64,000 nucleotides of DNA from Kutzneria kofuensis. GTDB lineage: Bacteria; Actinomycetota; Actinomycetes; Mycobacteriales; Pseudonocardiaceae. A model generated the notes under the pieces. The model did no database searches and was not told the origin of the DNA. It saw nothing but the letters and a program-made list of their open reading frames with translations. Location of the stretch: assembly GCF_014203355.1 (NCBI RefSeq), contig NZ_JACHIR010000003.1, positions 1 through 64,000 of the forward strand, written 5' to 3'. Shown in pieces: positions 48,453 through 64,000 of this stretch (the stretch's first letter is position 1; each line of letters begins with the position of its first letter). The translations under genes were made by a program, and so were the position numbers.

Positions 48453-51400
48453 ATGACCCGACGCTTGGAGATCGAGGACCTGTACGACCTGGCGGTCCCG
48501 GCGCAGCCGGCGATGTCGCCGGACGGCGGCCGCATCGTGTACGTGCTGCGCACGGCCGACCGGGAGAACGACCGGAACGTCACCCAGCTCTGGGAAGTCG
48601 GCACGAGCGGGGGAGAGGCGCGGCAGCTCACCCGTGGCACCAGCGACTCCTCACCGGCGTGGTCACCGGACGGCGCCACCATCGCGTTTCTCCGCGAGGA
48701 CCAGGTGTGGCTGCTGGACGCCGGCGAACCTCGGCCGGTCACCACGTTGCCGTTCGGCGCGGGCAGGCCGGCGTGGAGCCCGGACGGCACCAAGATCGCG
48801 TTCACGGCCGTCGTCGGACCGGACGAGTCCACTGCGCCGATTGTCGTCGACCGCTTGAACTTCAAGGCCGACGGCGTCGGGCTGATCGGGGAGCAGCGCC
48901 GGCACATCCACGTCCTCGACGTCGGGACGGGCGAGGTGCGACAGGTCACCTCCGGTGACTGGGACGCCGGCGATCCCGCGTGGTCGCCCGACGGTGCGAA
49001 GATCGCCTTCTGCGCCGCGCAGGACACCGACGCGGACCTCACTTTCCGTTCCGCCGCCTACGTCGTCGAGATCGGCGGCGAGCCCCGACTGGTCGGCAGC
49101 GACGAGGGCACGTGCGGGGCGGCCGGCTGGACCGCCGACGGCGGCGCGCTGCTCGTGGTCGGGCGGACGGACACGAAGGTCGGGAACACCCGGTTGCTGC
49201 GGGTGCCGGTGGACGGCGGTGAGACCGTCGACCTGGCGGAGTCGTTGGACCGCAACGTGATGGTCGGCGAGCCCGGCTACCCCGGCGCGGTGCCGCAACA
49301 GGTCGGCGACGCCGTGTACTTCTGTGCCCGCGACCGCGGCTACACCCACCTGTTCAAGGTCGAGGACGGTGCCATCGCGCTGGTTCTCGGCGGTGCCGGG
49401 ACCGTTGTGTCCGATGTGGACGCCGCGACCGGCAAGGCCGCGATCGTGCTGACCACGCCGACGTCGTACGGGGAGATCGCGGTCGTCGACCTCGACAACG
49501 GCGGTATCGACATCCGAACCGCCCACGGCGCCAACGATGTGGAACTCTTTCCGCACGAGGAAAGGGAATTCACCATCTCAGACGGCACGGTCGTGCACGG
49601 TTGGCTGCTCCGCGACCCCGCGCGGACGGGCCCGTTGCCGCTGCTGCTCGACATTCACGGCGGTCCGCACAACGCCTGGAACAGCGCTGCCGAGGCCGTG
49701 CGCGCCTACCGTCAGGTGCTCGTGGCGCGAGGATGGGCGGTGCTGCTGCTCAATCCCAGGGCAAGCGACGGCTACGGAGAGGCGTTTCTCACCGGGGCCG
49801 TCGGCGCGTGGGGTGTCGCCGACGCGAAGGACTTCCTTGAGCCGCTTGACCAACTCGTCGCCGAAGGTGTCGCGGACGCCGACCGGCTGGCCGTCGCCGG
49901 CTACAGCTACGGCGGTTACATGACCTGCTACCTGACCAGCCGCGACGACCGGTTCGCGGTGGCGGTCGCCGGTGGCGTCGTCGCTGACACGACCAGCATG
50001 TCCGGCACCTCCGACGCGGGGCATTTCCTGGCGGCGGCAGAACTCGGCGACGCGGACTCCTCGCCGCTGGCCAAGGTCGACCAGGTTCGCACACCCACCC
50101 TCCTCCTGCACGGCGCCGCCGACGACCGCTGCCCGGTCGGCCAGGCCGAGCAGTGGTTCACCGCCCTGCGCACCCGCGGTGTGCCGACGCAACTGGTGCT
50201 CTACCCCGGAGCGTCACACGGTTTCATCTACAGTGGACGGCCGTCGCACCGCGTCGACTACAACAACCGGGTTGTCGACTGGCTGGAGCGGCGGCCGACG
50301 ATCCGGGCCGACCACTGGCGCCGACGCCTCGCCGAGCTGGCCCGCAAGCACAGGGTTCCCGGTGCCGCGCTGGGCATTCTGCGCGGCGACGAGCTCGTGC
50401 GGGTCAGCGCCGGCGTGCTCAACAAGGCCACCGGCGTGCCCGTCACCGACGACTCGGTGTTCCAGATCGGCTCCATCACCAAGGTCTGGACGGCCACCCT
50501 GGCGATGCAGCTGGTCGACGAGGGCCGGCTCGACCTGGACGCGCCGATCGCCGCCGTGCTGCCCGACCTGCGGCTGTCCGATCCGGACGTGACGAAGCGG
50601 GTGACGCTGCGACACCTGTTGACGCACACCAGCGGCATCGACGGCGACGTGTTCACCGACACCGGCCGCGGCGACGACTGCCTCGCGAAATACGTCGACC
50701 TGCTCGACCAGGCCGCGCAGATCCACCCGCTCGGCGCGACTTTCTCCTACTGCAACTCGGGATTCGCACTGGCCGGCCGCGTGATCGAGAAGCTCACCGG
50801 CAAGACCTGGGACGCCGTCCTGCGCGAGCGGCTGATCGACCCGCTCGGTCTCGAACGCACCGTCACCCTTCCCGAGGAGACGATCCTGCTCAGCGCGGCC
50901 ATCGGCCATGACGTGCCAGCCGGCGAGAGCCCACGACCCGTGTCGACCTTCATGCTGCCGCGTTCGATCGGTCCCGCCGGACTGATCACCGCATCCACCG
51001 CTGACCTGCTGGCGTTCGTCCGACTGCACCTGACCGGCGGCCTCGCCGAGAGCGGCGACCGCCTGCTGAGTGAGACGTCCGCGAGGGCGATGACCGAGCT
51101 GCAGGTCGAGTTGCCGAACAAGCACGCCAAGGGCGGCTCCTGGGGCCTCGGCTGGATGCGGTTCGACTGGGACGGACGCCAGGTCATCGGCCACGACGGC
51201 GCCACCTGCGGGCAGTTCGCGTTCCTCCGGATCGTGCCCGAACTGGACCTGGCCGTCACGGTGCTCACCAACGGCGGCAACGTCACCGACCTGGCCAACG
51301 ACCTGTTCCGCGAGCTGTTCGCCGAGCTGGCCGGCATCACCGTGCCGCGCCCGATCGAGCCGCCGGCCCAACCGCCGGCCGTGGACGCCTCGCCGTACCT

Positions 51401-51662
51401 CGGTGGCTACGAGCGAGCCGGCATCCGCGTCGACATCCGCCAGGTCGACGACGGCTTGCGGATCCGCACCACCTACAGCGGGACGCTGGCCGAACTGATG
51501 CCCGAACCGGTCACCGAGCACGACCTGGTGGCGGTGACCGACACGCTGTTCCTGACCCGGGCGGACGACCAGGGGGCGTGGATACCGGTCGTGTTCTTCA
51601 CGCTGCCCACCGGCGAGCAGTACGTGCAGGCCAGCGTCCGGACCTTCCGCAAAGTCGACTGA
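48453..51662 (+). CDS. S9 prolyl-oligopeptidase fused to a class C beta-lactamase-like hydrolase
   Basis: 1069 residues in two enzyme modules. Residues 1 to about 340 hold TolB/WD40-like propeller repeats (SPAWSPDGATIAF, AWSPDGTKIAF, AWSPDGAKIAF). The S9 domain has Ser485 in GYSYGGY, Asp557 in HGAADDRCPV and His589 in GASHGF, a full triad. After about residue 605 a penicillin-binding/beta-lactamase domain follows, with SxxK at Ser674-Lys677 (QIGSITKVW) and YxN at Tyr766-Asn768 (SYCNSG). A C-terminal beta domain ends the protein. Both catalytic sites look intact. No signal peptide is seen, so it is probably cytoplasmic. Confidence 0.9.
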   Translation: MTRRLEIEDLYDLAVPAQPAMSPDGGRIVYVLRTADRENDRNVTQLWEVGTSGGEARQLTRGTSDSSPAWSPDGATIAFLREDQVWLLDAGEPRPVTTLPFGAGRPAWSPDGTKIAFTAVVGPDESTAPIVVDRLNFKADGVGLIGEQRRHIHVLDVGTGEVRQVTSGDWDAGDPAWSPDGAKIAFCAAQDTDADLTFRSAAYVVEIGGEPRLVGSDEGTCGAAGWTADGGALLVVGRTDTKVGNTRLLRVPVDGGETVDLAESLDRNVMVGEPGYPGAVPQQVGDAVYFCARDRGYTHLFKVEDGAIALVLGGAGTVVSDVDAATGKAAIVLTTPTSYGEIAVVDLDNGGIDIRTAHGANDVELFPHEEREFTISDGTVVHGWLLRDPARTGPLPLLLDIHGGPHNAWNSAAEAVRAYRQVLVARGWAVLLLNPRASDGYGEAFLTGAVGAWGVADAKDFLEPLDQLVAEGVADADRLAVAGYSYGGYMTCYLTSRDDRFAVAVAGGVVADTTSMSGTSDAGHFLAAAELGDADSSPLAKVDQVRTPTLLLHGAADDRCPVGQAEQWFTALRTRGVPTQLVLYPGASHGFIYSGRPSHRVDYNNRVVDWLERRPTIRADHWRRRLAELARKHRVPGAALGILRGDELVRVSAGVLNKATGVPVTDDSVFQIGSITKVWTATLAMQLVDEGRLDLDAPIAAVLPDLRLSDPDVTKRVTLRHLLTHTSGIDGDVFTDTGRGDDCLAKYVDLLDQAAQIHPLGATFSYCNSGFALAGRVIEKLTGKTWDAVLRERLIDPLGLERTVTLPEETILLSAAIGHDVPAGESPRPVSTFMLPRSIGPAGLITASTADLLAFVRLHLTGGLAESGDRLLSETSARAMTELQVELPNKHAKGGSWGLGWMRFDWDGRQVIGHDGATCGQFAFLRIVPELDLAVTVLTNGGNVTDLANDLFRELFAELAGITVPRPIEPPAQPPAVDASPYLGGYERAGIRVDIRQVDDGLRIRTTYSGTLAELMPEPVTEHDLVAVTDTLFLTRADDQGAWIPVVFFTLPTGEQYVQASVRTFRKVD

Positions 51663-55130: not shown

Positions 55131-56432
55131 CTACCGCAGCCGCCGCATCAGTCCGCCGACCATCGCCATTCCCGCCGCCGCCACCACTGCTTGCAGGATC
55201 CGGCGCTGGCGGCGGGCCCGTTCCTGCGCCTCGGCATAGGGCATGGTGGTGTTGGTGATCATGGCGTGCAGCGGCATCCACCGGTGCCGCAAGGCCTTCT
55301 CCAGCACGACGTCACATGCCTTCTCCAGCCGCACGGCAGGGGAGCGGACGGTGTCCCGCAGCTCGGCGAAGTTCTGGCGGGACATCTCGGCGAGGGCGTC
55401 GGTGTGGGGCTTGCGGCGCTGGTAGAACCGCTCGACCGCGGCCTCGGGATCGTCGGGGAAGGCGGCGAGGGAGTCCGCCAACTCCAGACCGTCCTCGAAG
55501 GCGGCGTTCATGCCCTGGGCGAGGAACGGATACACGGCATGGCAGGCATCACCGATCAGCACGACCTTGCCCTCGTGGTGCCAGGGCGAGGTCCGTGTCG
55601 TGACCAGCTTGAAGGTGGGCTGGTCGAGGAAGACCTTGCCGACATCGGGCACGAGGTCGAGGACGTCGGGGAACAGCTCCCGGAACAGGGCCTCGACGTC
55701 GTCGGACGTGCGAAGGGCGTCGAAGCTGCGCGGGCCCCGGAAGGGCAGCACGCAGGAGCAGGTGAAGGAGCCGTCGAGGTTGGGGTGGGCGAACATCATG
55801 GTCTCGCCGCGCGGCCAGAGGTGGAACACGTCGTCGGCCATGCGGTGCCGGCCGTCGGCGCCGGCGGGGATGTGCAGTTCCCGCCAACCCCACTCCAGGA
55901 ACTCCTGGTGGTAGTCGGCCCGCTCGTCCCGCTGCATGTGCTTGCGTACCACGGAGAACGCGCCATCGGCGCCGACGATGACGTCCGGGGTGACGGTGAA
56001 GGCGTGCCCCGCGTCGTCCACGAAGTCGGCGACGGGGAGGTCCTTGTCGACGGCGACGCAGCGGGTGCCGAACACGAACCGCACGTTGGGCAGCCGCGTG
56101 GCGGCCTCGATCAGCAGGATGCCGAGATCGTGCCGCTGGATGGCGAGAATGCCGCCCCGCCCGTACGTCGAGAACCGAACCGACCCGTCATGGCCGTGCA
56201 CGAGCCGGCCGCGCATCGGGACGACGTGCCGGGTGATCTCCTCGCGCAGCCCGAGGCGGTCCAGGGCCTTCAGGCCCCGCTCGGACAGCCCGAGGTTCAT
56301 CGACGTGGTGTGCACGGCCGACACCCGGGGATCGGGCCGGCGCTCGTAGACGGTCACCGTGTGGCCCTGCCGGCCGAGCACCAACGCGAGGAAGGCGCCG
56401 GCCATGCCGGCCCCGACTACCGTGAATTCCAC
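55131..56432 (-). CDS. Kynurenine 3-monooxygenase-like FAD hydroxylase
   Basis: 433 residues. The N-terminal FAD-binding motif is VVGAGMAGAFLALVLGRQGHTVTVYERR. The KMO-type region TSMNLGLSERGLKALDRLGL and VVPMRGRLVHGHDG follows, then FHLWPRGETMMFAHPNLDGSFTCSCVLPF. The second FAD motif is VVLIGDACHAVYPFLAQGMNAAFED, and the C-terminal MPLHAMITNTTMPYAEAQERAR is diagnostic of KMO. KMO hydroxylates kynurenine at C3 using NADPH and O2. No kynureninase or tryptophan dioxygenase is in view, so the substrate may be a kynurenine-like intermediate of this operon. GTG 56432 overlaps the upstream gene by 16 nt. It is the last gene of the operon. Confidence 0.8.
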   Translation of the reverse strand: MEFTVVGAGMAGAFLALVLGRQGHTVTVYERRPDPRVSAVHTTSMNLGLSERGLKALDRLGLREEITRHVVPMRGRLVHGHDGSVRFSTYGRGGILAIQRHDLGILLIEAATRLPNVRFVFGTRCVAVDKDLPVADFVDDAGHAFTVTPDVIVGADGAFSVVRKHMQRDERADYHQEFLEWGWRELHIPAGADGRHRMADDVFHLWPRGETMMFAHPNLDGSFTCSCVLPFRGPRSFDALRTSDDVEALFRELFPDVLDLVPDVGKVFLDQPTFKLVTTRTSPWHHEGKVVLIGDACHAVYPFLAQGMNAAFEDGLELADSLAAFPDDPEAAVERFYQRRKPHTDALAEMSRQNFAELRDTVRSPAVRLEKACDVVLEKALRHRWMPLHAMITNTTMPYAEAQERARRQRRILQAVVAAAGMAMVGGLMRRLR

Positions 56433-57682
56433 TGTGGACCCCCGGCCGTGACGATGTGCACCTGGTCGATCGCCTTCTCCGCCAACCGGACCGCCTCGCC
56501 GGCGGTCGGCGCGAGCACCATCGCCGAGCCCACCCGGTCCCAGGAGCTGCGCAGCTCCCGCACGGTGTCGCCGACCCCGGGGCCGAGGCCGACGCTGACC
56601 ACGCCCGGGATGGCCCGGGCCGCGTCCAGGCCGTCGATGCTGACGATCTCGCCCGGCGGCACCTGCATGAACCGCACGGCGGCGGCCTGCGGGGCGGTGC
56701 GCGGCAGGGGTGGCGGCTCGAGGCCGCGCATCACCGCGAAGTAGTGCTGGCCGATCGGCTCGCCGTAGGCGCGTTCGATCATCTCGATGATCCCGTCGCC
56801 GGGGAACCGGCCGGCGCACTCGACCAGGTACGGCGTGCCGTCCCGGACGATCCACTCGCAGTGCACGACGCCGGAGCCGAAGCCGACGGCCCGTAGGACG
56901 GCGAGCGTGCCTTCCTCCAGGGTCAGAGCCAGCTCGGGGGAGATCGCCGCCGGCAGCACGTGACCGAGCTCGACCGGCCGTGGCCCGGGATAGAGCACCT
57001 TGTCGGTGACGTTGGCGAACAGCGACTCGCCGTCCCGGACGACCATCTCCACGCTGTACTCGTGGCCGGCCACGTACTCCTCGACCAGCATCCGCACCGC
57101 CCGCTCGCGGTCGGGCACGAACATCCCCTCGTCGTGCTGGACACACGATTCCCAGGCCTCGGCCACCGAGGACGGATCGTGCACGATCTGCGTTCCCACC
57201 GCGCCCTGCCGGTTGGCCGGCTTGAGCACGACCGGTCCGCCGACGGCGGTCATGAACCGGGCCACGTCCGCCGCCGAGGCGGCCTCCTCCGACAGCGGAT
57301 TGGGCACGCCGGCGGCGCGGGTCACCTTGCGCAGCAAGGACTTGTCTCGCATCAGCTCGGCGGCGCACAGTCCCGCGCCGGGCGTCCCGAGCCGCTCGGC
57401 CAGCCGGGCGGCGAACGTCGTCGCGTACTCGACGAGCGGGACCACCGCCGACGCGGTGAGGTCGGGACGGGTGACGAGCAGGGTGTCGGCCGCCCCGGGC
57501 AGCTGGTACTCCCACTCGATGAGCTCGCGCACCAGCGGCGCGTCCGCGATGTGCGCCCGGACGTCCCGCTTGCGCACGACGTCCGGCTCCTCGACGATGA
57601 TCAGGGAGTTCGCCGGCAGGAACTCGGACAGCACCTGCAGCGCCGCCACGAAGCCCACCACGATGATCGGTCGTTCGGTCAC
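56417..57682 (-). CDS. ATP-grasp amino-acid ligase-like enzyme (1)
   Basis: A 421-residue ATP-grasp protein. After an N-terminal Rossmann-like domain (PIIVVGFVAALQVLSEFLP), the core has AAELMRDKSLLRKVTRAAGVP, VVLKPANRQGAVGTQIVHD and VEEYVAGHEYSVEMVVRDG. VVHCEWIVRDGTPYLVECAGRFPGDGIIEMI holds the Mg ligands. It resembles L-amino-acid ligases that join two amino acids or amino-acid analogues through an acyl phosphate. It lies 12 nt after the flavin monooxygenase gene in the same operon, and its stop overlaps the KMO-like start. Confidence 0.8.
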   Translation of the reverse strand: MTERPIIVVGFVAALQVLSEFLPANSLIIVEEPDVVRKRDVRAHIADAPLVRELIEWEYQLPGAADTLLVTRPDLTASAVVPLVEYATTFAARLAERLGTPGAGLCAAELMRDKSLLRKVTRAAGVPNPLSEEAASAADVARFMTAVGGPVVLKPANRQGAVGTQIVHDPSSVAEAWESCVQHDEGMFVPDRERAVRMLVEEYVAGHEYSVEMVVRDGESLFANVTDKVLYPGPRPVELGHVLPAAISPELALTLEEGTLAVLRAVGFGSGVVHCEWIVRDGTPYLVECAGRFPGDGIIEMIERAYGEPIGQHYFAVMRGLEPPPLPRTAPQAAAVRFMQVPPGEIVSIDGLDAARAIPGVVSVGLGPGVGDTVRELRSSWDRVGSAMVLAPTAGEAVRLAEKAIDQVHIVTAGGPQWNSR

Positions 57683-57694
57683 GTCAGCGCTCCT

Positions 57695-58891
57695 CTACTT
57701 CGCGATGCCCAGGCACAGGCCGAATTCGGGGGTGCCGCCCAGCAGGTGGGCGCCGCCGGACTGGAGGATCCGCTCCTGCGCGAACAGGTGCTGGCACATC
57801 GTCGTGGTGTCCCGCAGCCAGCGGTCCATCGGCGACGCGCGGTGGATCGACGCGGTCTGCAGCAGGTCGTAGATCCGGGTCACGATCGACCGTGCGGTGC
57901 GGAACGCGTGCAGCCGGGACAGCGGCAGCGCCGCCCGCTCGGTGCGGGTGAGATCGTCCAGGCTGCCGCCGCCCGCCAGCACTTCCTCCAGCCGCAGCAG
58001 CGCGCCGCGAACCCCGTGCCGGGTGGCGTTGTAGTCGGCCTCGCACTCGGCGATGATCGTCTGCACTCGCCGGTTGTCCGCCCACGCGTCGCCGTTGGGG
58101 TAGCGGCGCGTCGTCGCCAGGTCACGCACGTAATCCAGCGCGGCGCGGGCGACCCCCAGCGGCACGCCGGGCAGGCACCGCATGAACGTCTCCGGTTCGG
58201 TCTTCGGGCTGGAGTGGTCGCGCAGGTCGCTGAAGACCAGCGTGTGCTCCTCCGGCACGAACACGTCGGTGATCGTGTAGTCGCAGCTGCCGGTGCCCTG
58301 CAGGCCCGTGGTCTCCCAGTTGTCGACCAGGCTGACGTCCTCGCGGCGCACCAGGAACAGCCGCGAGTCGTGCGGGTCGCGGCCGTCCGGGCTCGGATCC
58401 GGCTGGCCGTCCCGGTAGATGAACGCGCCGGAGATCACCCAGTCGCAGGTGGTCACGCCACTGCCGAACGTCCACCGGCCGGACAGCCGGTAGCCGCCGG
58501 GCACCCGGTCGGCCCGGCCGACCGGGAACAGCGCGCCGGCGGTGATCACGTCCAGGCCGGGGAACATCTCCCGCGCGGTTGCCTCGTCCAGGTACCGAGC
58601 GAAGTGCCCGGTGTGCGCGCAGACCTCGGCGCACCAGGCGGCGGAAGCGTCCCCGTAGGACAGTGCCTCGACGACGTCCAGCTCCTGCAACGAGGTCAGG
58701 TCGGGGCCACCCCACACCCGGGTGAAGCCGGCCCGATAGATGCCGGTGTCCCGCAGCTTCTCCACGATGTCGTCGGGCAACCGCCGGGCCCGCTCGATCT
58801 CCGCCGCCCGCTCGCGCAGCTCCGGGGCCAGCGCCTCGGCCCGGGCCAGGATCTCCGCGGCGGTCAGCGTCGCCTCGGGTGCGATGGTCAT
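57695..58891 (-). CDS. Acyl-CoA-dehydrogenase-fold flavin monooxygenase
   Basis: A 398-residue protein with the acyl-CoA dehydrogenase fold: IYRAGFTRVWGGPDLTSLQELDVVEALSYGDASAAWC, GGYRLSGRWTFGSGVTTCDWVISGAF and LQGTGSCDYTITDVFVPEEHT. The WRAT-type ASAAWC and the GTGSxD segment are typical of the HsaA/DszC/HpaB-like FMN- or FAD-dependent oxygenases rather than true dehydrogenases. It probably N- or C-hydroxylates an intermediate using reduced flavin supplied by a reductase elsewhere. GAGGAG precedes ATG 58891. Confidence 0.8.
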   Translation of the reverse strand: MTIAPEATLTAAEILARAEALAPELRERAAEIERARRLPDDIVEKLRDTGIYRAGFTRVWGGPDLTSLQELDVVEALSYGDASAAWCAEVCAHTGHFARYLDEATAREMFPGLDVITAGALFPVGRADRVPGGYRLSGRWTFGSGVTTCDWVISGAFIYRDGQPDPSPDGRDPHDSRLFLVRREDVSLVDNWETTGLQGTGSCDYTITDVFVPEEHTLVFSDLRDHSSPKTEPETFMRCLPGVPLGVARAALDYVRDLATTRRYPNGDAWADNRRVQTIIAECEADYNATRHGVRGALLRLEEVLAGGGSLDDLTRTERAALPLSRLHAFRTARSIVTRIYDLLQTASIHRASPMDRWLRDTTTMCQHLFAQERILQSGGAHLLGGTPEFGLCLGIAK

Positions 58892-58902
58892 CTGGTCGCT
58901 CC

Positions 58903-60198
58903 TCACGCGTCGGTGTCCAGCAGTCCGGCGGGCATCTCGAAGGCGGCGTCGGGCGCGGGCGGCCCGATCGGGTCGGCGTCGACCTCGACCATGGCCGAGG
59001 TTTCGGCCAGCCGCCGCCGGCAGGTCGGCACGTCGTCGGCCTCGCACACCACGAAGGAGTGGCGGGCCAGGTAGCCGCCCGGCGGCAGCCGCAGGGTGGT
59101 GCCGGGGCCGACCATCGGCGACGCCGTGACCAGGCCCTCGACCGCTTCCGGCACGGTCACCGACCGCACCACGCAGTCGGCCGACGGCAGTCCGAACCGG
59201 ATGCCGGCCACGGACCGCTTCACCGGCGTGACGTCGGGCCGGTTGCCGGTGACCACGTCGAACAGGACCTCGCCGGAGTCGATGCCGGTGGCGATCCGGC
59301 CCAGCAGCGGAATCAGGTCCCCGCCGACCCGGCCGTTGATCTCGATCACCACCGGGCCGTTCGCGGTCAGCCGCACCTCGCTGTGGGTGATGCCGTCCTC
59401 GATCCCGAGCGCGCGATGGGCCCGCGCCAGGGTGCAGGCCAGCTCCTCGTCGGCCAGCAGCGGATCGGCCGCGTCGACGACGTGTCCGACTTCCTCGAAG
59501 TACGGCGGCTCGCCGCTTTCCTTGCGCGCCAGGAACATCGGCGAGTACTCGCCCTTGTGCACGGCGCCGTCGACGCTGATCTCCGGTCCGTCGGCGTAGC
59601 CCTCGACGATGACCTTCGCGCCGTACACGCCCTGGTCGACCTCGCTGGCCGCCAGCGCGACCGCGAACGCCGCGTCGAACTCCGACTCGTCCCGCGCCAG
59701 CACCACCCCGATGCTCGCGCCCAGGGCACGGGGCTTCACGACGACCGGGAACCCGATAGCCGCAGCTGCTTGCCGGGCTTCGGCCGGATCGGGTGTCATG
59801 GCGTAGCCGGGCTGGCGCAGGCCCGCCGCGGTCAACAGGTCGCGGGTGCGGTGCTTGTCCCGGCAGCCGTGCACACCGGCCAGCCCCAGGCCCGGCACGC
59901 CGAACTCGGCCGCCAACTCGCCGGCCGTCAGCACCAGCGGCTCGTCCCAGCACATCAGCCCGACGATCCGTTCCCGGGCGGCGACCTCGCGGGCCTCGGC
60001 GATCATCACCGCCGGGTCGAACACGTCGGCCAGGACGATCTCGTCGAAGTACGGCCGCTGCCAGGTCGGCTTGAGATTGTTCAGCAGCACCAGGCCCAGG
60101 CCGGCCGCGCGGGCACGGCGGTGGATGGACGTGACCAGGTACTCCCGGTAGTAGCGCAGCCCGCTGCCGATCACCAGCAGCACCCCGTTGCCGGTCAT
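58903..60198 (-). CDS. ATP-grasp amino-acid ligase-like enzyme (2)
   Basis: 431 residues. The N-terminal domain contains GVLLVIGSGLRYYREYLVTSIHRRARAAGLGLVLLNN. The ATP-grasp core has GVHGCRDKHRTRDLLTAAGLRQP, FPVVVKPRALGASIGVVLA and IVEGYADGPEISVDGAVHKG. VRLTANGPVVIEINGRVGGDLIPLL carries the Mg-binding Glu and Asn. This is the layout of BacD/L-amino-acid ligase-type enzymes. It differs clearly from the other ATP-grasp of the operon, so two separate ligations are likely. It starts at ATG 60198, overlapping the MFS stop (ATGA). Confidence 0.8.
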   Translation of the reverse strand: MTGNGVLLVIGSGLRYYREYLVTSIHRRARAAGLGLVLLNNLKPTWQRPYFDEIVLADVFDPAVMIAEAREVAARERIVGLMCWDEPLVLTAGELAAEFGVPGLGLAGVHGCRDKHRTRDLLTAAGLRQPGYAMTPDPAEARQAAAAIGFPVVVKPRALGASIGVVLARDESEFDAAFAVALAASEVDQGVYGAKVIVEGYADGPEISVDGAVHKGEYSPMFLARKESGEPPYFEEVGHVVDAADPLLADEELACTLARAHRALGIEDGITHSEVRLTANGPVVIEINGRVGGDLIPLLGRIATGIDSGEVLFDVVTGNRPDVTPVKRSVAGIRFGLPSADCVVRSVTVPEAVEGLVTASPMVGPGTTLRLPPGGYLARHSFVVCEADDVPTCRRRLAETSAMVEVDADPIGPPAPDAAFEMPAGLLDTDA

Positions 60199-61445
60199 GC
60201 CACCGCCTCCGAGGTGACCACCGGCTCGGCCTTGGGCTCCGGCTTGACCTTGATGCCGCCCCAGGCCAGCACGCCGGTGACGACGGCGAGCACGGTCAGC
60301 ACCGGGAAGAACACGGTGCCCAGCGCCGTCCAGGCCAGCACGCCGAGAATCGGCCCGAGCGCCTGGGCCAGTCCGGTGATCGAACTGGTGACGCCGAGGT
60401 AGCGGGCCCGGTAGCGGGCCGGCACCTTGGCCGGTCGGGCGAACATGGTCGGGCCGGACATCATCAGGCCGCCGGTGAACAGCGCGGCGCTGATGATCAC
60501 CACCGCGGCGTTGCCGGACGACAGGCCCCAGCCGAGGAAGGCCAGCCCGAACACGACGTGGCCCAGGAACACCGCCAGCGACGGCGGCCACTTCACGATG
60601 TACGAGGTGATCTTCAGCTCGCAGGTGATCAGCACGATGCCCGAGGTGGCCAGCACGAAACTGTACAGGTCGGTGGACAGGCCGTCGGCGACGATCTTCA
60701 ACGGCAGCGCGACCGTGTACTGGGCGTACACCAGCGTGCCGATGAACACCGCGGCCAGGTACATCAGGAACCGGCCGTCCCGGGCCAGCACCCCGTAGGC
60801 CGAGCCGCGAGACGCGGTCTCGCCGGGGGCGGGCTCCTCCTCCGGCGGCGCGACCACGTTGGGCAGCAAGGAGAAGGCCAGCAGCGAGTACAGCACCGCG
60901 GTCGCACCATCCACATAGAACAGCAGGTCCCAGTTCACGGCGATGAACACGGTGGCCAGCAGCGCCGCGCCGGCCGCGCCGGCGTTGAGTGCGATCCGCA
61001 TCATGGAGAACGACATGACCTGGAACTTCTCGGGCATCAGCTCGGCCAGCATGACCGAGGCCGCCGGGCGGTAGGCCTGCGTGACCAGACCGGCCAGGCC
61101 CACGTCCAGCACCACCAGCCAGAACGTGCCGGGGCCGCTGAGCAGCGGGATCAGCGCGACCAGCGGGCCGGACGCGGCCATCGCCAGCCCGATGGTGACG
61201 CGGGTGCCGAGCCGGTGCGCGAGTTCGCCGCCGAGCGCGCTGCCGATGATCGCGCCCACCGCGTAGGCGACCAGACCGACGCCGGCCAGCTCCGCGGACA
61301 CCCCGCGGTGCACCAGGTACAGCAGCAGGAAGGACTGGACGAACGCGCCCAGCTGGTTGAGCAGCATGCCGCCGAGCAGGTACCGGATCGACGCCGGCGT
61401 CGCCCTGATCGCGGCGAGCACGCCGTCGGACGCCCTCTCGTTCAT
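60195..61445 (-). CDS. MFS transporter, probable product exporter
   Basis: A 416-residue major facilitator with 12 predicted membrane segments: LLGGMLLNQLGAFVQSFLLLYL first, the A-motif-like GGELAHRLGTRVTIGLAMAASG between helices 2 and 3, and a central charged loop PPEEEPAPGETASRG. It groups by layout with drug and metabolite exporters. Start and stop codons overlap both neighbours by 4 nt, so it is an integral part of the operon and probably exports or confers resistance to its product. Confidence 0.85.
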   Translation of the reverse strand: MNERASDGVLAAIRATPASIRYLLGGMLLNQLGAFVQSFLLLYLVHRGVSAELAGVGLVAYAVGAIIGSALGGELAHRLGTRVTIGLAMAASGPLVALIPLLSGPGTFWLVVLDVGLAGLVTQAYRPAASVMLAELMPEKFQVMSFSMMRIALNAGAAGAALLATVFIAVNWDLLFYVDGATAVLYSLLAFSLLPNVVAPPEEEPAPGETASRGSAYGVLARDGRFLMYLAAVFIGTLVYAQYTVALPLKIVADGLSTDLYSFVLATSGIVLITCELKITSYIVKWPPSLAVFLGHVVFGLAFLGWGLSSGNAAVVIISAALFTGGLMMSGPTMFARPAKVPARYRARYLGVTSSITGLAQALGPILGVLAWTALGTVFFPVLTVLAVVTGVLAWGGIKVKPEPKAEPVVTSEAVA

Positions 61446-62440
61446 GCAGTCGCCTCCATGGCCTCGACGATCGTGTTCGCGACGAGCGGTGCGGCGGCGA
61501 ACCCGGAGCCGCCGCAGGCGGGCCGGGCCCACAGGCCCGGCCCGACCCGGTTCAACAGCGCGCCGCCGGTGTCCGGGTCGGCGGCGTAGTGGCATTCGCG
61601 CACCGCCACCACCTGGTAACGGTCCATTTCGGACAGAATCGGCTCGGCCAGCAGCCGGTCGACCCAGGGCCCCGGGTCGCCGCCGGCCGTCGAGTCCACG
61701 TGCCGGCACACCAGATCCGAGCTGATCTTGAGCAGGGTCCCGTCGCCCGGCGGCACCAGCCAGGCGCGGCAGTCCGCGCCCAGCCCACCGACCCCGGGCG
61801 CGTGGTCCCACCACGCCGCCAGATCCGCCGGCGGACGCAGGTACACCATGGTCTGCCGGTACAACTTCACCGGAACGTCGACCAGCTCTCGACTCCACGG
61901 CCCCGCCGCGACCAGCACGACGTCCGCACCCAGGGCCGTGCCGTCCGCGAGGGACACCCAGTGCTCGGCGACGAACCGCACCGTGCATTCCGGCTTCACC
62001 GTCACGTCGGGACGGTCGGCCAACCACTGCGCCGCGGCGTCCAGGAACCGGTCCGCCAGCAGCACTCCCGCGTCGGCGTCGAGCACGCCGACCGTGCCGG
62101 CCGGGAACCGCACGTGCGGCAGCTTCTCCGGCTCGACGACCGTCAGCGAGCCGGCTCCGGTTCGCGGCCACGCCGTGACGATGCCGACCTGTCGGAAGAA
62201 CCTCGTGCCCAGCAACGACTCCAGCGCCAGCCACCTTCGGCGGGAGTCGGCCATCCGAGCCGTCAGGACCGGATCGCCGGGCCTTTGCACCCGCAGCGCC
62301 CGGTGCTGGTCGGCCGACGTGGACGCCGGGTTGGGGATCGGGCCGCGATCGAGCAGCGTCACGCGGTGTCCCGCCCGCGCGCACTCGATCGCCGTCACCA
62401 TCCCCGTGACCCCGGCGCCGACGACGATGATCGTGGACAT
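61442..62440 (-). CDS. DAO-type FAD-dependent amino-acid oxidoreductase
   Basis: 332 residues. The N-terminal dinucleotide fold is IIVVGAGVTGMVTAIECARAGHRVTLLDRG. VVLVAAGPWSRELVDVPVKLYRQTMVYLRPP and the C-terminal GLWARPACGGSGFAAAPLVANTI give the DAO/glycine-oxidase-like pattern. Such enzymes oxidise amino-acid amines to imines or keto acids. The ATG shares bases with the stop of the tRNA-synthetase-like gene (TGATG), and its stop overlaps the MFS start. The active-site Arg and Tyr cannot be assigned with confidence. Confidence 0.8.
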   Translation of the reverse strand: MSTIIVVGAGVTGMVTAIECARAGHRVTLLDRGPIPNPASTSADQHRALRVQRPGDPVLTARMADSRRRWLALESLLGTRFFRQVGIVTAWPRTGAGSLTVVEPEKLPHVRFPAGTVGVLDADAGVLLADRFLDAAAQWLADRPDVTVKPECTVRFVAEHWVSLADGTALGADVVLVAAGPWSRELVDVPVKLYRQTMVYLRPPADLAAWWDHAPGVGGLGADCRAWLVPPGDGTLLKISSDLVCRHVDSTAGGDPGPWVDRLLAEPILSEMDRYQVVAVRECHYAADPDTGGALLNRVGPGLWARPACGGSGFAAAPLVANTIVEAMEATA

Positions 62441-63981
62441 CAGGCGCCGGCCCCGGTGAGGCGGGGCAGGGGAGCGGGCGTGATCGTCACGGCGTCCGGG
62501 CGGGCCGGGATCGACGTGTCCGGCAACGCGGCCGCCGCCAGGTCGATCAACACCGGCGCGGCGCAGCGGAGGAACACGTCCACCTCGTGACACAGATCGC
62601 CGGCGTTGTCCCTGGTCACCCCTGCGGCCATCTGGTCCAACCGCGCCAACTGCTCGGCCATGGTCGACGCCACGGCCGTGAGGCTGAAGCGCCGCACCCC
62701 ATAGCCGGCGGCGAAGCGGTCGACCATCCGCTGCGCGGACCGCCGCGACCGCTCGGACACCGGCAACGCGCCCCGCCCCACCCAGGCGTCGACCGCCGCC
62801 GCAACCCGGTTCCAGGGCCGGACCAGCCGCGTGTCGGTGACCCGAACCAGTGCCTCGCGGGTGAAGTCGGTGCGCTGGAACTCCGGGCTGGTCGCGGACA
62901 GGTGGAACCGGATGAGGTCCCGCGGCACCTCCGCCGCCAGCTCCCGCCCCGACACCACATGTCCCCGGCTGGTGGAGAACTTCTCGTTCGCCAGCTCGTA
63001 GAAGTCGTTGGTGATGTACTGCGCCGGCACCACGTGCTCGCCCAGCGCGGTCAACATCGCCGTGCCCACGACCGCGAACGGATAGGTGGCGTCCAGGCCG
63101 GTGAAGTAGACGACGGTCGTGCCGGAGTCCTTGCGCCACAACTCGTCGTCGGAGGTCAGCACCGCGCCCCGCCGCTCGGCCGCCAGCGCAGTGGTGAACA
63201 TGCTCCACGGCATGCCCTCCATGTGCGGATAGATCACTTGCCCCGGCACCTCCGGGAACGGCGCCGGGATGCCCCACGAGGTCGGCTGTGTGATGGGGAA
63301 GTCGGGCAGCGGCCCGGCCATCACGTCCTCGATCATCTGCGCCATGTGCGGGCGCATGGTCGTCCCGGCGAAGTACGCCTCCAACTCGGCCCGGTACTCC
63401 TCGACCGGGAACACCAGGATCTCCGCCTCGCGGGTCTCCAGCGGCTCGTCCGGGTACAGCGTCGACCGCGGGTCGAGCAGGTCCCCGGGGGCGACCGGCA
63501 ACCCGCAGCTCTCGCAGATGCCGGCGTAGCCCGTGGCCAGGCAGAACGGGCAACCGCCGAGCACGTAGGCGTCCATCAGGTACTCGCCGGTGCTCGGCAG
63601 GTACGGGAAGCGCCAGGTGCGCAGCTTGAGCCGGCCCTGGCTGTGCAGCCGGTCGTAGAAGTCCAGCACCATCTTGGTGAACCGGTCGCCGATGCAGCCG
63701 AAGCCGTCCACCTCGATGCCCATCGCGGCCAGCGTCCGCTCGACCTGCTCGGCGGACCGGACCCGGAGGTGCTCCGGCGACACGCCGAGCTTGCGGGCGG
63801 CGGTGACCACGTAGTTCTGGGTGAAGTGCATGCCCGTGCCGTACAACGCCTCCCGGCCGGTGGCGCGGGCGTAGCGGGTGCACACGTCGGCGGCGAGGAA
63901 CGGGCCCGCCAGGTGACCGACGTGCAGGTCCCCGTTCGCGGTGGGCGCCGGTGAGATGATCACCAGCCGGTCGCTGGCCAT
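62440..63981 (-). CDS. Methionyl-tRNA synthetase-like class I ligase
   Basis: A 513-residue class I aminoacyl-tRNA-synthetase-fold protein closest to MetRS. It has HIGH-type SPAPTANGDLHVGHLAGPFLAADV, a zinc-knuckle-like GGCPFCLATGYAGICESCG and VVYFTGLDATYPFAVVGTAML. The KMSKS position reads EKFSTSRG. The C-terminal helical domain is short and poorly conserved. With KFSTS for KMSKS and its place in a biosynthetic operon, it is probably not the housekeeping MetRS. It may adenylate an amino acid for amide formation or for transfer from tRNA. GAGGAG precedes ATG 63981, and the operon likely continues past the right edge. Confidence 0.85.
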   Translation of the reverse strand: MASDRLVIISPAPTANGDLHVGHLAGPFLAADVCTRYARATGREALYGTGMHFTQNYVVTAARKLGVSPEHLRVRSAEQVERTLAAMGIEVDGFGCIGDRFTKMVLDFYDRLHSQGRLKLRTWRFPYLPSTGEYLMDAYVLGGCPFCLATGYAGICESCGLPVAPGDLLDPRSTLYPDEPLETREAEILVFPVEEYRAELEAYFAGTTMRPHMAQMIEDVMAGPLPDFPITQPTSWGIPAPFPEVPGQVIYPHMEGMPWSMFTTALAAERRGAVLTSDDELWRKDSGTTVVYFTGLDATYPFAVVGTAMLTALGEHVVPAQYITNDFYELANEKFSTSRGHVVSGRELAAEVPRDLIRFHLSATSPEFQRTDFTREALVRVTDTRLVRPWNRVAAAVDAWVGRGALPVSERSRRSAQRMVDRFAAGYGVRRFSLTAVASTMAEQLARLDQMAAGVTRDNAGDLCHEVDVFLRCAAPVLIDLAAAALPDTSIPARPDAVTITPAPLPRLTGAGA

Positions 63982-64000
63982 CAGGCGCTCCTCAGTTCGC

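Follow-up and report, generated by a model that had tools for sequence, protein, structure and literature searches.

We analysed the first 64,000 bases (the window) of the 603,801-base contig NZ_JACHIR010000003.1 (C3) in the 10.4-Mb genome of Kutzneria kofuensis, and find that the seven minus-strand genes at its right end form the larger half of a biosynthetic gene cluster whose central reaction is probably, by analogy with characterised systems, the formation of a nitrogen–nitrogen (N–N) bond. Because a methionyl-tRNA synthetase (MetRS)-like gene is accompanied by genes for an N-hydroxylase and a DAO-type oxidase in the same operon and for a cupin in a divergent operon, its product is best read as the adenylating half of a split MetRS/cupin hydrazine synthetase of the Spb40/PyrN/RHS1 family. 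The product of the cluster is most likely a small N–N-containing peptide, probably tryptophan-derived, that is assembled by ATP-grasp ligases without the usual peptide machinery. A first-pass annotation of the window had read the genes as an operon dedicated to making a small peptide or modified amino acid, with flavoenzymes and an MFS exporter among the encoded proteins, and this is supported; its reading of the MetRS-like protein as an amide-forming ligase is probably not correct, as the partners match a hydrazine synthetase.

The MetRS-like protein (513 amino acids, 62440-63981, minus strand) matches the Pfam family tRNA-synt_1g (PF09334) with 202 bits (E 2e-59). By contrast with the 336-633 bits set as cut-offs by the methionine-tRNA ligase models listed, it reaches at most 197 bits against them. 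The annotation had raised the case that the only MetRS of the genome lies here, and the genome was searched for others: a stronger MetRS is encoded at C1:3291515 (481 bits versus 202) and another at C1:2632198. Thus, a housekeeping MetRS was rejected, the protein being far under the cut-offs of the listed models and a separate MetRS being encoded at C1:3291515. The ATP motifs HVGH and KFSTSRG are retained while pocket residues are altered, and the nearest named relatives, from two Kutzneria strains, are 96 and 95% identical.

In the hydrazine synthetases described in PMC8664883, the MetRS-like part esterifies a second amino acid with N6-hydroxylysine and a zinc cupin rearranges the ester to give the N–N bond; both halves may exist as standalone proteins, and the set of Rhodococcus jostii yielded a hydrazine product. 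A review (PMC11705231) describes further split pairs as well as the DAO step in the s56-p1 pathway. The cupin of the present cluster (C3:66435-66842, plus strand) carries H56, H58, E62 and H96, i.e. H-x-H-x3-E followed by H 34 residues later, and the metal residues of PyrN and RHS1 have the identical spacing (PMC8664883). The metal residues and the essential Glu were kept in all 30 aligned related cupins and in PDB 4rd7. The N-monooxygenase of the lysine/ornithine type (424 amino acids, minus strand, Lys_Orn_oxgnase 290 bits) is encoded by the gene that heads the operon, of which bases 63981-64000 lie in the window and which extends up to C3:65255, overlapping the MetRS-like start by 1 nucleotide (nt); it matches ornithine as well as lysine hydroxylases, including MbtG and a desferrioxamine enzyme. 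The DAO-type FAD oxidase (332 amino acids, 61442-62440, minus strand; PF01266, 80 bits, E 3e-22) is the counterpart of Spb39/Tri27 in known pathways.

By analogy with these systems, the N-hydroxylase would generate N6-hydroxylysine (or a homologue), the MetRS-like protein would adenylate a second amino acid and esterify it to the hydroxylamine oxygen, and the separately encoded cupin would rearrange the ester to an N–N-bonded hydrazine. We consider these three core steps very likely. In a proposed fourth step, the DAO oxidase would cleave the hydrazine by cutting a C–N bond, freeing a hydrazino acid. We infer the four steps because the genes are homologous to those of biochemically characterised systems and lie together.

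Alternatively, the MetRS-like protein could be an amide (peptide) ligase that joins an amino acid to the amine of a lysine derivative, without formation of an N–N bond. A peptide-bond system was what PMC2922099 predicted in 2010 from gene sets comprising a MetRS paralogue, a cupin and a lysine N-hydroxylase, several of them with ATP-grasp and flavin enzymes, and the ester intermediate can also be converted non-enzymatically, in competition with N–N formation (PMC8664883). However, characterised homologues with the same trio make N–N bonds (PMC11705231), and the cupin metal residues needed for N–N formation are intact; we regard the amide ligase as quite improbable. As to the split hydrazine synthetase, the cluster class was thus already predicted in 2010 (PMC2922099) and its mechanism shown in PMC8664883, and the set in the window is a further variant of a system known in outline. 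The annotation recognised no characterised cluster with this gene set, and literature searches showed none among the papers listed (cluster collections such as MIBiG and antiSMASH were not covered). The PNP-1 antibiotic cluster of Pantoea was considered as a match and rejected, there being no tRNA synthetase or cupin in the available part of its description. A genome paper on Kitasatospora setae contained none of the six terms looked for in it.

A close parallel in layout is the system of R. jostii RHA1 (RHS1, PDB 5UQP), in which the cupin and the MetRS-like protein are likewise separate, an N-hydroxylase is encoded nearby and the metal-site spacing is the same. The RHA1 MetRS (the pRHL1 gene, assumed to be the published one) is 32% identical to that of the window, the match between the cupins is weak (5uqp, 22.7 bits) and the pocket codes differ (SNTAALAYNERF in RHA1 against PATHHGMSAPFG in the window). 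The RHA1 product is the glutamate one (PMC8664883), and RHA1 has a saccharopine dehydrogenase (PMC2922099) where the window has the DAO oxidase. The s56-p1 (Spb38-40), triacsin (Tri26-28) and azaserine (AzsL-N) pathways share the N-hydroxylase, MetRS/cupin and DAO-type oxidase with the window; however, Spb40, Tri28 and AzsN are fused cupin-MetRS proteins. In N-nitroglycine biosynthesis, NngK-M make hydrazinoacetic acid. Relative to the hydrazinoacetic-acid pathways, the present cluster adds KMO-like, DUF6875, BBE and avidin-fold proteins, and where azaserine and triacsin use GNAT succinylation, AMP ligases and carrier proteins, it has two ATP-grasp ligases instead. In albofungin biosynthesis, the pair is also split (Afn8 MetRS-like, Afn9 cupin, with the N-hydroxylase Afn18; PMC11705231), but the hydrazine goes to an aromatic polyketide via an asparagine-synthase-like enzyme, and no polyketide gene was present among the 16 cluster and flanking genes that we scanned with Pfam.

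Homologues (31-50% identity) of the N-hydroxylase, cupin, MetRS-like, DAO, BBE and MFS proteins and of both ATP-grasp ligases are encoded on plasmid pDFI1 of Deinococcus ficus (L051), in a cluster of which we saw no description; at E 1e-4 it gave no match to the ACAD-fold, KMO-like, DUF6875 or 110-amino-acid avidin-fold proteins, and it has a third ATP-grasp and a PEP-mutase-family gene. As a separate observation, two plasmids outside Actinomycetota, pDFI1 and pAR24_C of Pantoea agglomerans (L050), carry N-hydroxylase, cupin, MetRS-like, oxidase and ATP-grasp genes together.

The seven genes at 55131-63981 lie where they had been annotated, and Pfam supports all of the classes named for them. 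Downstream of the DAO gene on the minus strand follow genes for an MFS transporter (416 amino acids, 60195-61445; PF07690 MFS_1, 102 bits, E 5e-29), which is the proposed exporter, ATP-grasp ligase 1 (431 amino acids, 58903-60198; ATP-grasp_4 PF13535, 68 bits, E 9e-19), an ACAD-fold flavin monooxygenase of the HsaA/Rv3094c type (398 amino acids, 57695-58891; Acyl-CoA_dh_2 PF08028, E 6e-17), ATP-grasp ligase 2 of the L-amino acid ligase type (421 amino acids, 56417-57682; LAL_C2 PF18603, 81 bits, E 8e-23; ATP-grasp_4, 1e-16) and, as the last gene of the operon, a KMO-like FAD hydroxylase (433 amino acids, 55131-56432; FAD_binding_3, E 1e-28). Of the six joins among the seven genes, four are overlaps (1, 4, 4 and 16 nt) and two are gaps (11 and 12 nt); thus, the reported gaps of 11-12 nt and overlaps of 4-16 nt stand, except that the MetRS and DAO genes overlap by only 1 nt.

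As anticipated in the annotation, the operon runs past the right edge of the window with the N-hydroxylase gene, beyond which a divergent gene for a LuxR-type regulator (C3:65594-66316, plus strand) is followed by five further plus-strand genes: the cupin gene, as the first gene after the regulator, and genes for the avidin-fold protein (C3:66839-67171), a BBE-type FAD oxidase (C3:67168-68541), a DUF6875 protein (C3:68538-69182; DUF6875 domain, 205 bits) and an M20 peptidase (C3:69198-70523). The cupin, avidin-fold, BBE and DUF6875 genes are joined by successive 4-nt overlaps. The cluster appears to be bordered by an M4 metallopeptidase gene to its left and a DUF222 gene to its right, which gives it a length of about 15 kb (about C3:55131-70523). 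In this analysis, the genes, their coupling, their family membership, the conserved residues and their co-conservation are established.

ATP-grasp ligase 2 has an ATP-grasp domain and a C-terminal LAL_C2 domain, as in L-amino acid ligases, and its matches in PDB include the L-amino acid ligase BL00235 (69 bits) and BacD (58 bits); ATP-grasp ligase 1 has no LAL_C2 match at E<=0.001. The ACAD-fold monooxygenase matches the NCBIfam model HsaA with 136 bits, under its cut-off of 450, and Rv3094c in PDB with 151 bits. Following release of the hydrazino acid, the two ATP-grasp ligases would join it through amide bonds in a fifth step to one amino acid or two, including at least one that would be tryptophan-derived and oxidised by the DUF6875 protein and the KMO-like enzyme; the ACAD-fold monooxygenase and the BBE oxidase may then carry out further oxidations, possibly on nitrogen, and the MFS protein would export the product as the seventh step. 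These three later steps, the substrates and the order of the reactions are what we infer from the gene content.

As the annotation had stated, neither a non-ribosomal peptide synthetase (NRPS) nor a polyketide synthase (PKS) was found among the 16 genes scanned, and these also include no carrier protein, AMP ligase, GNAT, acyltransferase, IucA/IucC-type synthetase or uptake gene. These results bear on two further readings of the cluster. In the first, the N-hydroxylase would supply hydroxyornithine or hydroxylysine for an N-hydroxylated (hydroxamate-type) siderophore, in line with its resemblance to MbtG and the desferrioxamine enzyme and with the presence of an MFS transporter. However, the acyltransferase, IucA/IucC-type synthetase, NRPS and uptake gene are missing from the scanned genes, and we know of no role for the cupin, MetRS-like and DAO genes in a siderophore pathway; a siderophore is highly unlikely. 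In the second, the cluster would be a plain variant of the hydrazinoacetic-acid pathways, in which glycine is the amino acid activated by the MetRS-like protein and the ligases do no more than attach hydrazinoacetic acid. The N-hydroxylase, DAO oxidase and MetRS/cupin do constitute the hydrazinoacetic-acid trio, and a cluster with this trio is present in the same genome near C1:8.13 Mb. On the other hand, the scanned genes lack the AMP ligase, carrier protein and GNAT, and the MetRS-like pocket has H/H at positions 52/253 versus D/W in the other hydrazine synthetase of the genome and in more distant relatives; overall, the glycine variant is unlikely.

We next consider the distribution of the gene set. 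Among 390 genomes of the same family, 77 have MetRS-like relatives (E<=1e-60), against two of 396 in an even sample across the phylum, with the K. kofuensis genome included in both counts and the other match in the phylum sample being 36% identical. The family survey gave 93 MetRS-like places (two matches in one gene of genome G139 counted once); the window, two sets of 12 and 40 loci and one further locus (genome G226) were read, and the remaining places served only for a distance test with the avidin-fold protein. The gene set, which the annotation had suggested searching for across genomes, recurs with differing operon orders in 21 loci (the window and 20 relatives, MetRS identity >=77%), whose MetRS genes form one clade with support 100/100. 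All 21 loci of this window clade encode DUF6875 and 20 of them the KMO-like enzyme; the locus without a KMO-like match (L016) ends with its contig just past the MetRS gene. Except for the M20 peptidase, with a close homologue in only two of the 20 other clade loci (L011 and L012), the window genes recur, and the operon order differs among the Kutzneria, most Amycolatopsis and Saccharothrix-type loci. Because homologous sets recur in other genera despite rearrangement, a chance assembly is implausible.

In these comparisons, absence of a gene means that it was not found by tblastn within at most about 21.5 kb; contig ends truncate L014, L016, L023, L099 and L104, and the stretches of L019 and L092 stop short of the ATP-grasp and ACAD genes. 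ATP-grasp ligase 1 has a homologue with 64-90% identity in all window-clade and sister loci except L014, L016, L019, L092 and L104, in which the DNA read stops before its position. The BBE oxidase had no match in L087.

The 110-amino-acid protein is predicted to form an eight-stranded avidin-like barrel, with 5-14% identity to avidins among the 50 matches listed. For 81 of its 84 homologues, a MetRS-like gene is found no more than 12 kb away, and the avidin-fold protein is a regular member of the hydrazine cluster family.

The neighbouring branches of the MetRS tree (which omits L105) bear on whether one coupled amino acid is tryptophan-derived. In nine neighbouring loci, the stretch read contains neither a KMO-like nor a DUF6875 match; eight of these loci encode a B12/radical-SAM protein of the TsrM type, and the ninth, L104, is cut by a contig end and was grouped with this branch although its TsrM gene was not seen. 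The TsrM-type copy of K. buriramensis matches with 915 bits the solved tryptophan-C2-methyltransferase 6wte, which we take to be TsrM of Kitasatospora setae; the same locus encodes a partial match to the Trp_dioxygenase family (55 bits, above the cut-off), and its MetRS is sister to the KMO clade (support 98/95) with D at pocket position 253 and TsrM. Two N-hydroxylase genes are present in L094, L096-L098, L103 and L104 of this branch, and two ACAD-fold monooxygenase genes in L093, L094, L096-L099 and L103. In 15 further loci, neither the KMO/DUF6875 nor the TsrM module was found in the stretch read. Of these 15, 14 encode a flavin reductase, an enzyme that usually partners two-component flavin monooxygenases, the ACAD-fold type among them.

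The MetRS pocket positions, numbered as in Escherichia coli MetRS with the roles that we presume for 52 and 253, were compared with the RHA1 protein and the second synthetase of the genome. Positions 52/253 are H/H in the window and all 20 clade relatives, H/D in the nine TsrM-branch loci, Q/N in the 15 loci without either module, D/W in 16 more distant loci including the second hydrazine synthetase of the K. kofuensis genome, and A/A in RHA1. Residue 253 thus tracks the tryptophan module, being H with DUF6875 (21 loci), D in nine loci (TsrM in eight) and N with neither (15 loci). This coupling may reflect descent alone, since two of the three groups are clades and the third is almost one; the combination of D and TsrM may be the ancestral state, replaced once in the window clade, in which case the coupling may be a single event.

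The KMO-like enzyme matches kynurenine 3-monooxygenases over nearly the full length with 238 bits, and PMC13307353, citing a preprint, describes the DUF6875 proteins ('P422') as tryptophan-oxidising heme proteins. Based on the TsrM-type gene in the nearest branches, DUF6875 as a tryptophan oxidiser and the KMO-like enzyme, we lean slightly towards one coupled amino acid being tryptophan-derived. A more speculative and rather doubtful extension is that the MetRS-like protein of this clade itself activates a tryptophan-derived amino acid, giving an alpha-hydrazino (N-amino) tryptophan- or kynurenine-like unit as an antimetabolite-like warhead that is capped by the ATP-grasp ligases, with the avidin-fold protein replacing the carrier protein of azaserine-type pathways and holding the reactive hydrazino intermediate. 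The pairing of residue 253 with the tryptophan module speaks for this extension.

Several observations weigh against an N–N-containing, tryptophan-derived peptide assembled by two ligases. Firstly, the cupin gene sits in a different operon from that of its MetRS-like partner. Secondly, the best PDB match of the N-hydroxylase is an ornithine enzyme, and its sole NCBIfam match is a histamine N-monooxygenase model (148 bits versus a cut-off of 700). Thirdly, MetRS position 52 is H in the window versus D in the E. coli structure, where we take D52 to contact the alpha-amine, and in more distant relatives; therefore, the activated substrate may be unusual. Fourthly, in 11 of 15 sister-branch loci, tblastn of the stretch read gave no close homologue of ATP-grasp ligase 2 (only matches of 28-32%), and two ligases are thus not established family-wide. 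Fifthly, the fold search of PDB with DUF6875 gave no useful match, and five models of it disagree (mean predicted local distance difference test score (pLDDT) 58-85). Finally, the tryptophan argument leans partly on neighbouring branches and on the statement about DUF6875 in one paper.

The KMO-like enzyme is also altered. In all 20 aligned rows, the window among them, H320 and G321, which we take to be substrate-site positions of KMO, are replaced by L and A. The substrate-site residues L213, I224, L226, F238, M373 and Y404 (PMC6376250) are F, F, H, V, L and H in 20/20 rows. Among these eight altered positions, only H320 also varies between the KMO structures PfKMO and 6lkd. By contrast, R84, Y98 and N369, which PMC6376250 places together with Y404 at the kynurenine carboxylate, are retained in 20/20 rows. 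Because eight substrate-site positions are altered and three carboxylate contacts kept, the substrate is probably an amino acid related to kynurenine and not kynurenine itself.

DNA-repair genes adjoin 12 of the 15 loci without a tryptophan module (L095, L100-L102, L106-L109, L111, L113, L115 and L116), nine of the Ada-AlkA type and three for O6-methylguanine methyltransferases; none were found in 22 window-clade sources (the window and L009 counted apart), 10 TsrM-branch loci (two representing one cluster) or 17 others. Some products of the family may thus alkylate DNA, with the repair genes providing self-protection; this has no direct bearing on the product of the window cluster.

N–N bonds are seldom found in living systems, and it was only recently that MetRS/cupin hydrazine synthetases joined the list of enzymes known to form them. 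The characterised systems feed carrier-protein, NRPS, polyketide or nucleoside pathways, as far as described in the available sources. The present cluster couples the predicted N–N chemistry to ATP-grasp ligases and to a tryptophan-type tailoring module that is exchanged between related clusters, and it has a dedicated avidin-fold protein. Moreover, several of its proteins lend themselves to direct testing, namely the three enzymes predicted to make the N–N bond, the KMO relative, whose pocket is altered, and the avidin-fold protein, which has no known ligand.

Other hydrazine clusters were also seen. The K. kofuensis genome has a second hydrazine-synthetase cluster at C1:8124569-8144568 (L125), which resembles azaserine/triacsin-type genes and encodes a fused cupin-MetRS, an N-hydroxylase, a DAO oxidase, an AMP ligase and an AAT-family hydrolase. 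A more distant hydrazine cluster at 13912-17922 of L120 includes genes for a B12-binding protein, a methylaspartate mutase E-chain, a class II tRNA-synthetase-like protein, which is a second synthetase paralogue, and a glutamate-synthase-like protein; L121-L123 have the same core gene order. At C1:7864625-7872965, matches to the Trp_dioxygenase family accompany an ATP-grasp relative and a weak FAD monooxygenase relative in the K. kofuensis genome, possibly as another tryptophan-based cluster. Finally, an open reading frame of 1069 amino acids in the window (48453-51662, plus strand) encodes a prolyl-oligopeptidase (S9) part joined to a domain of the beta-lactamase family at its C-terminus.

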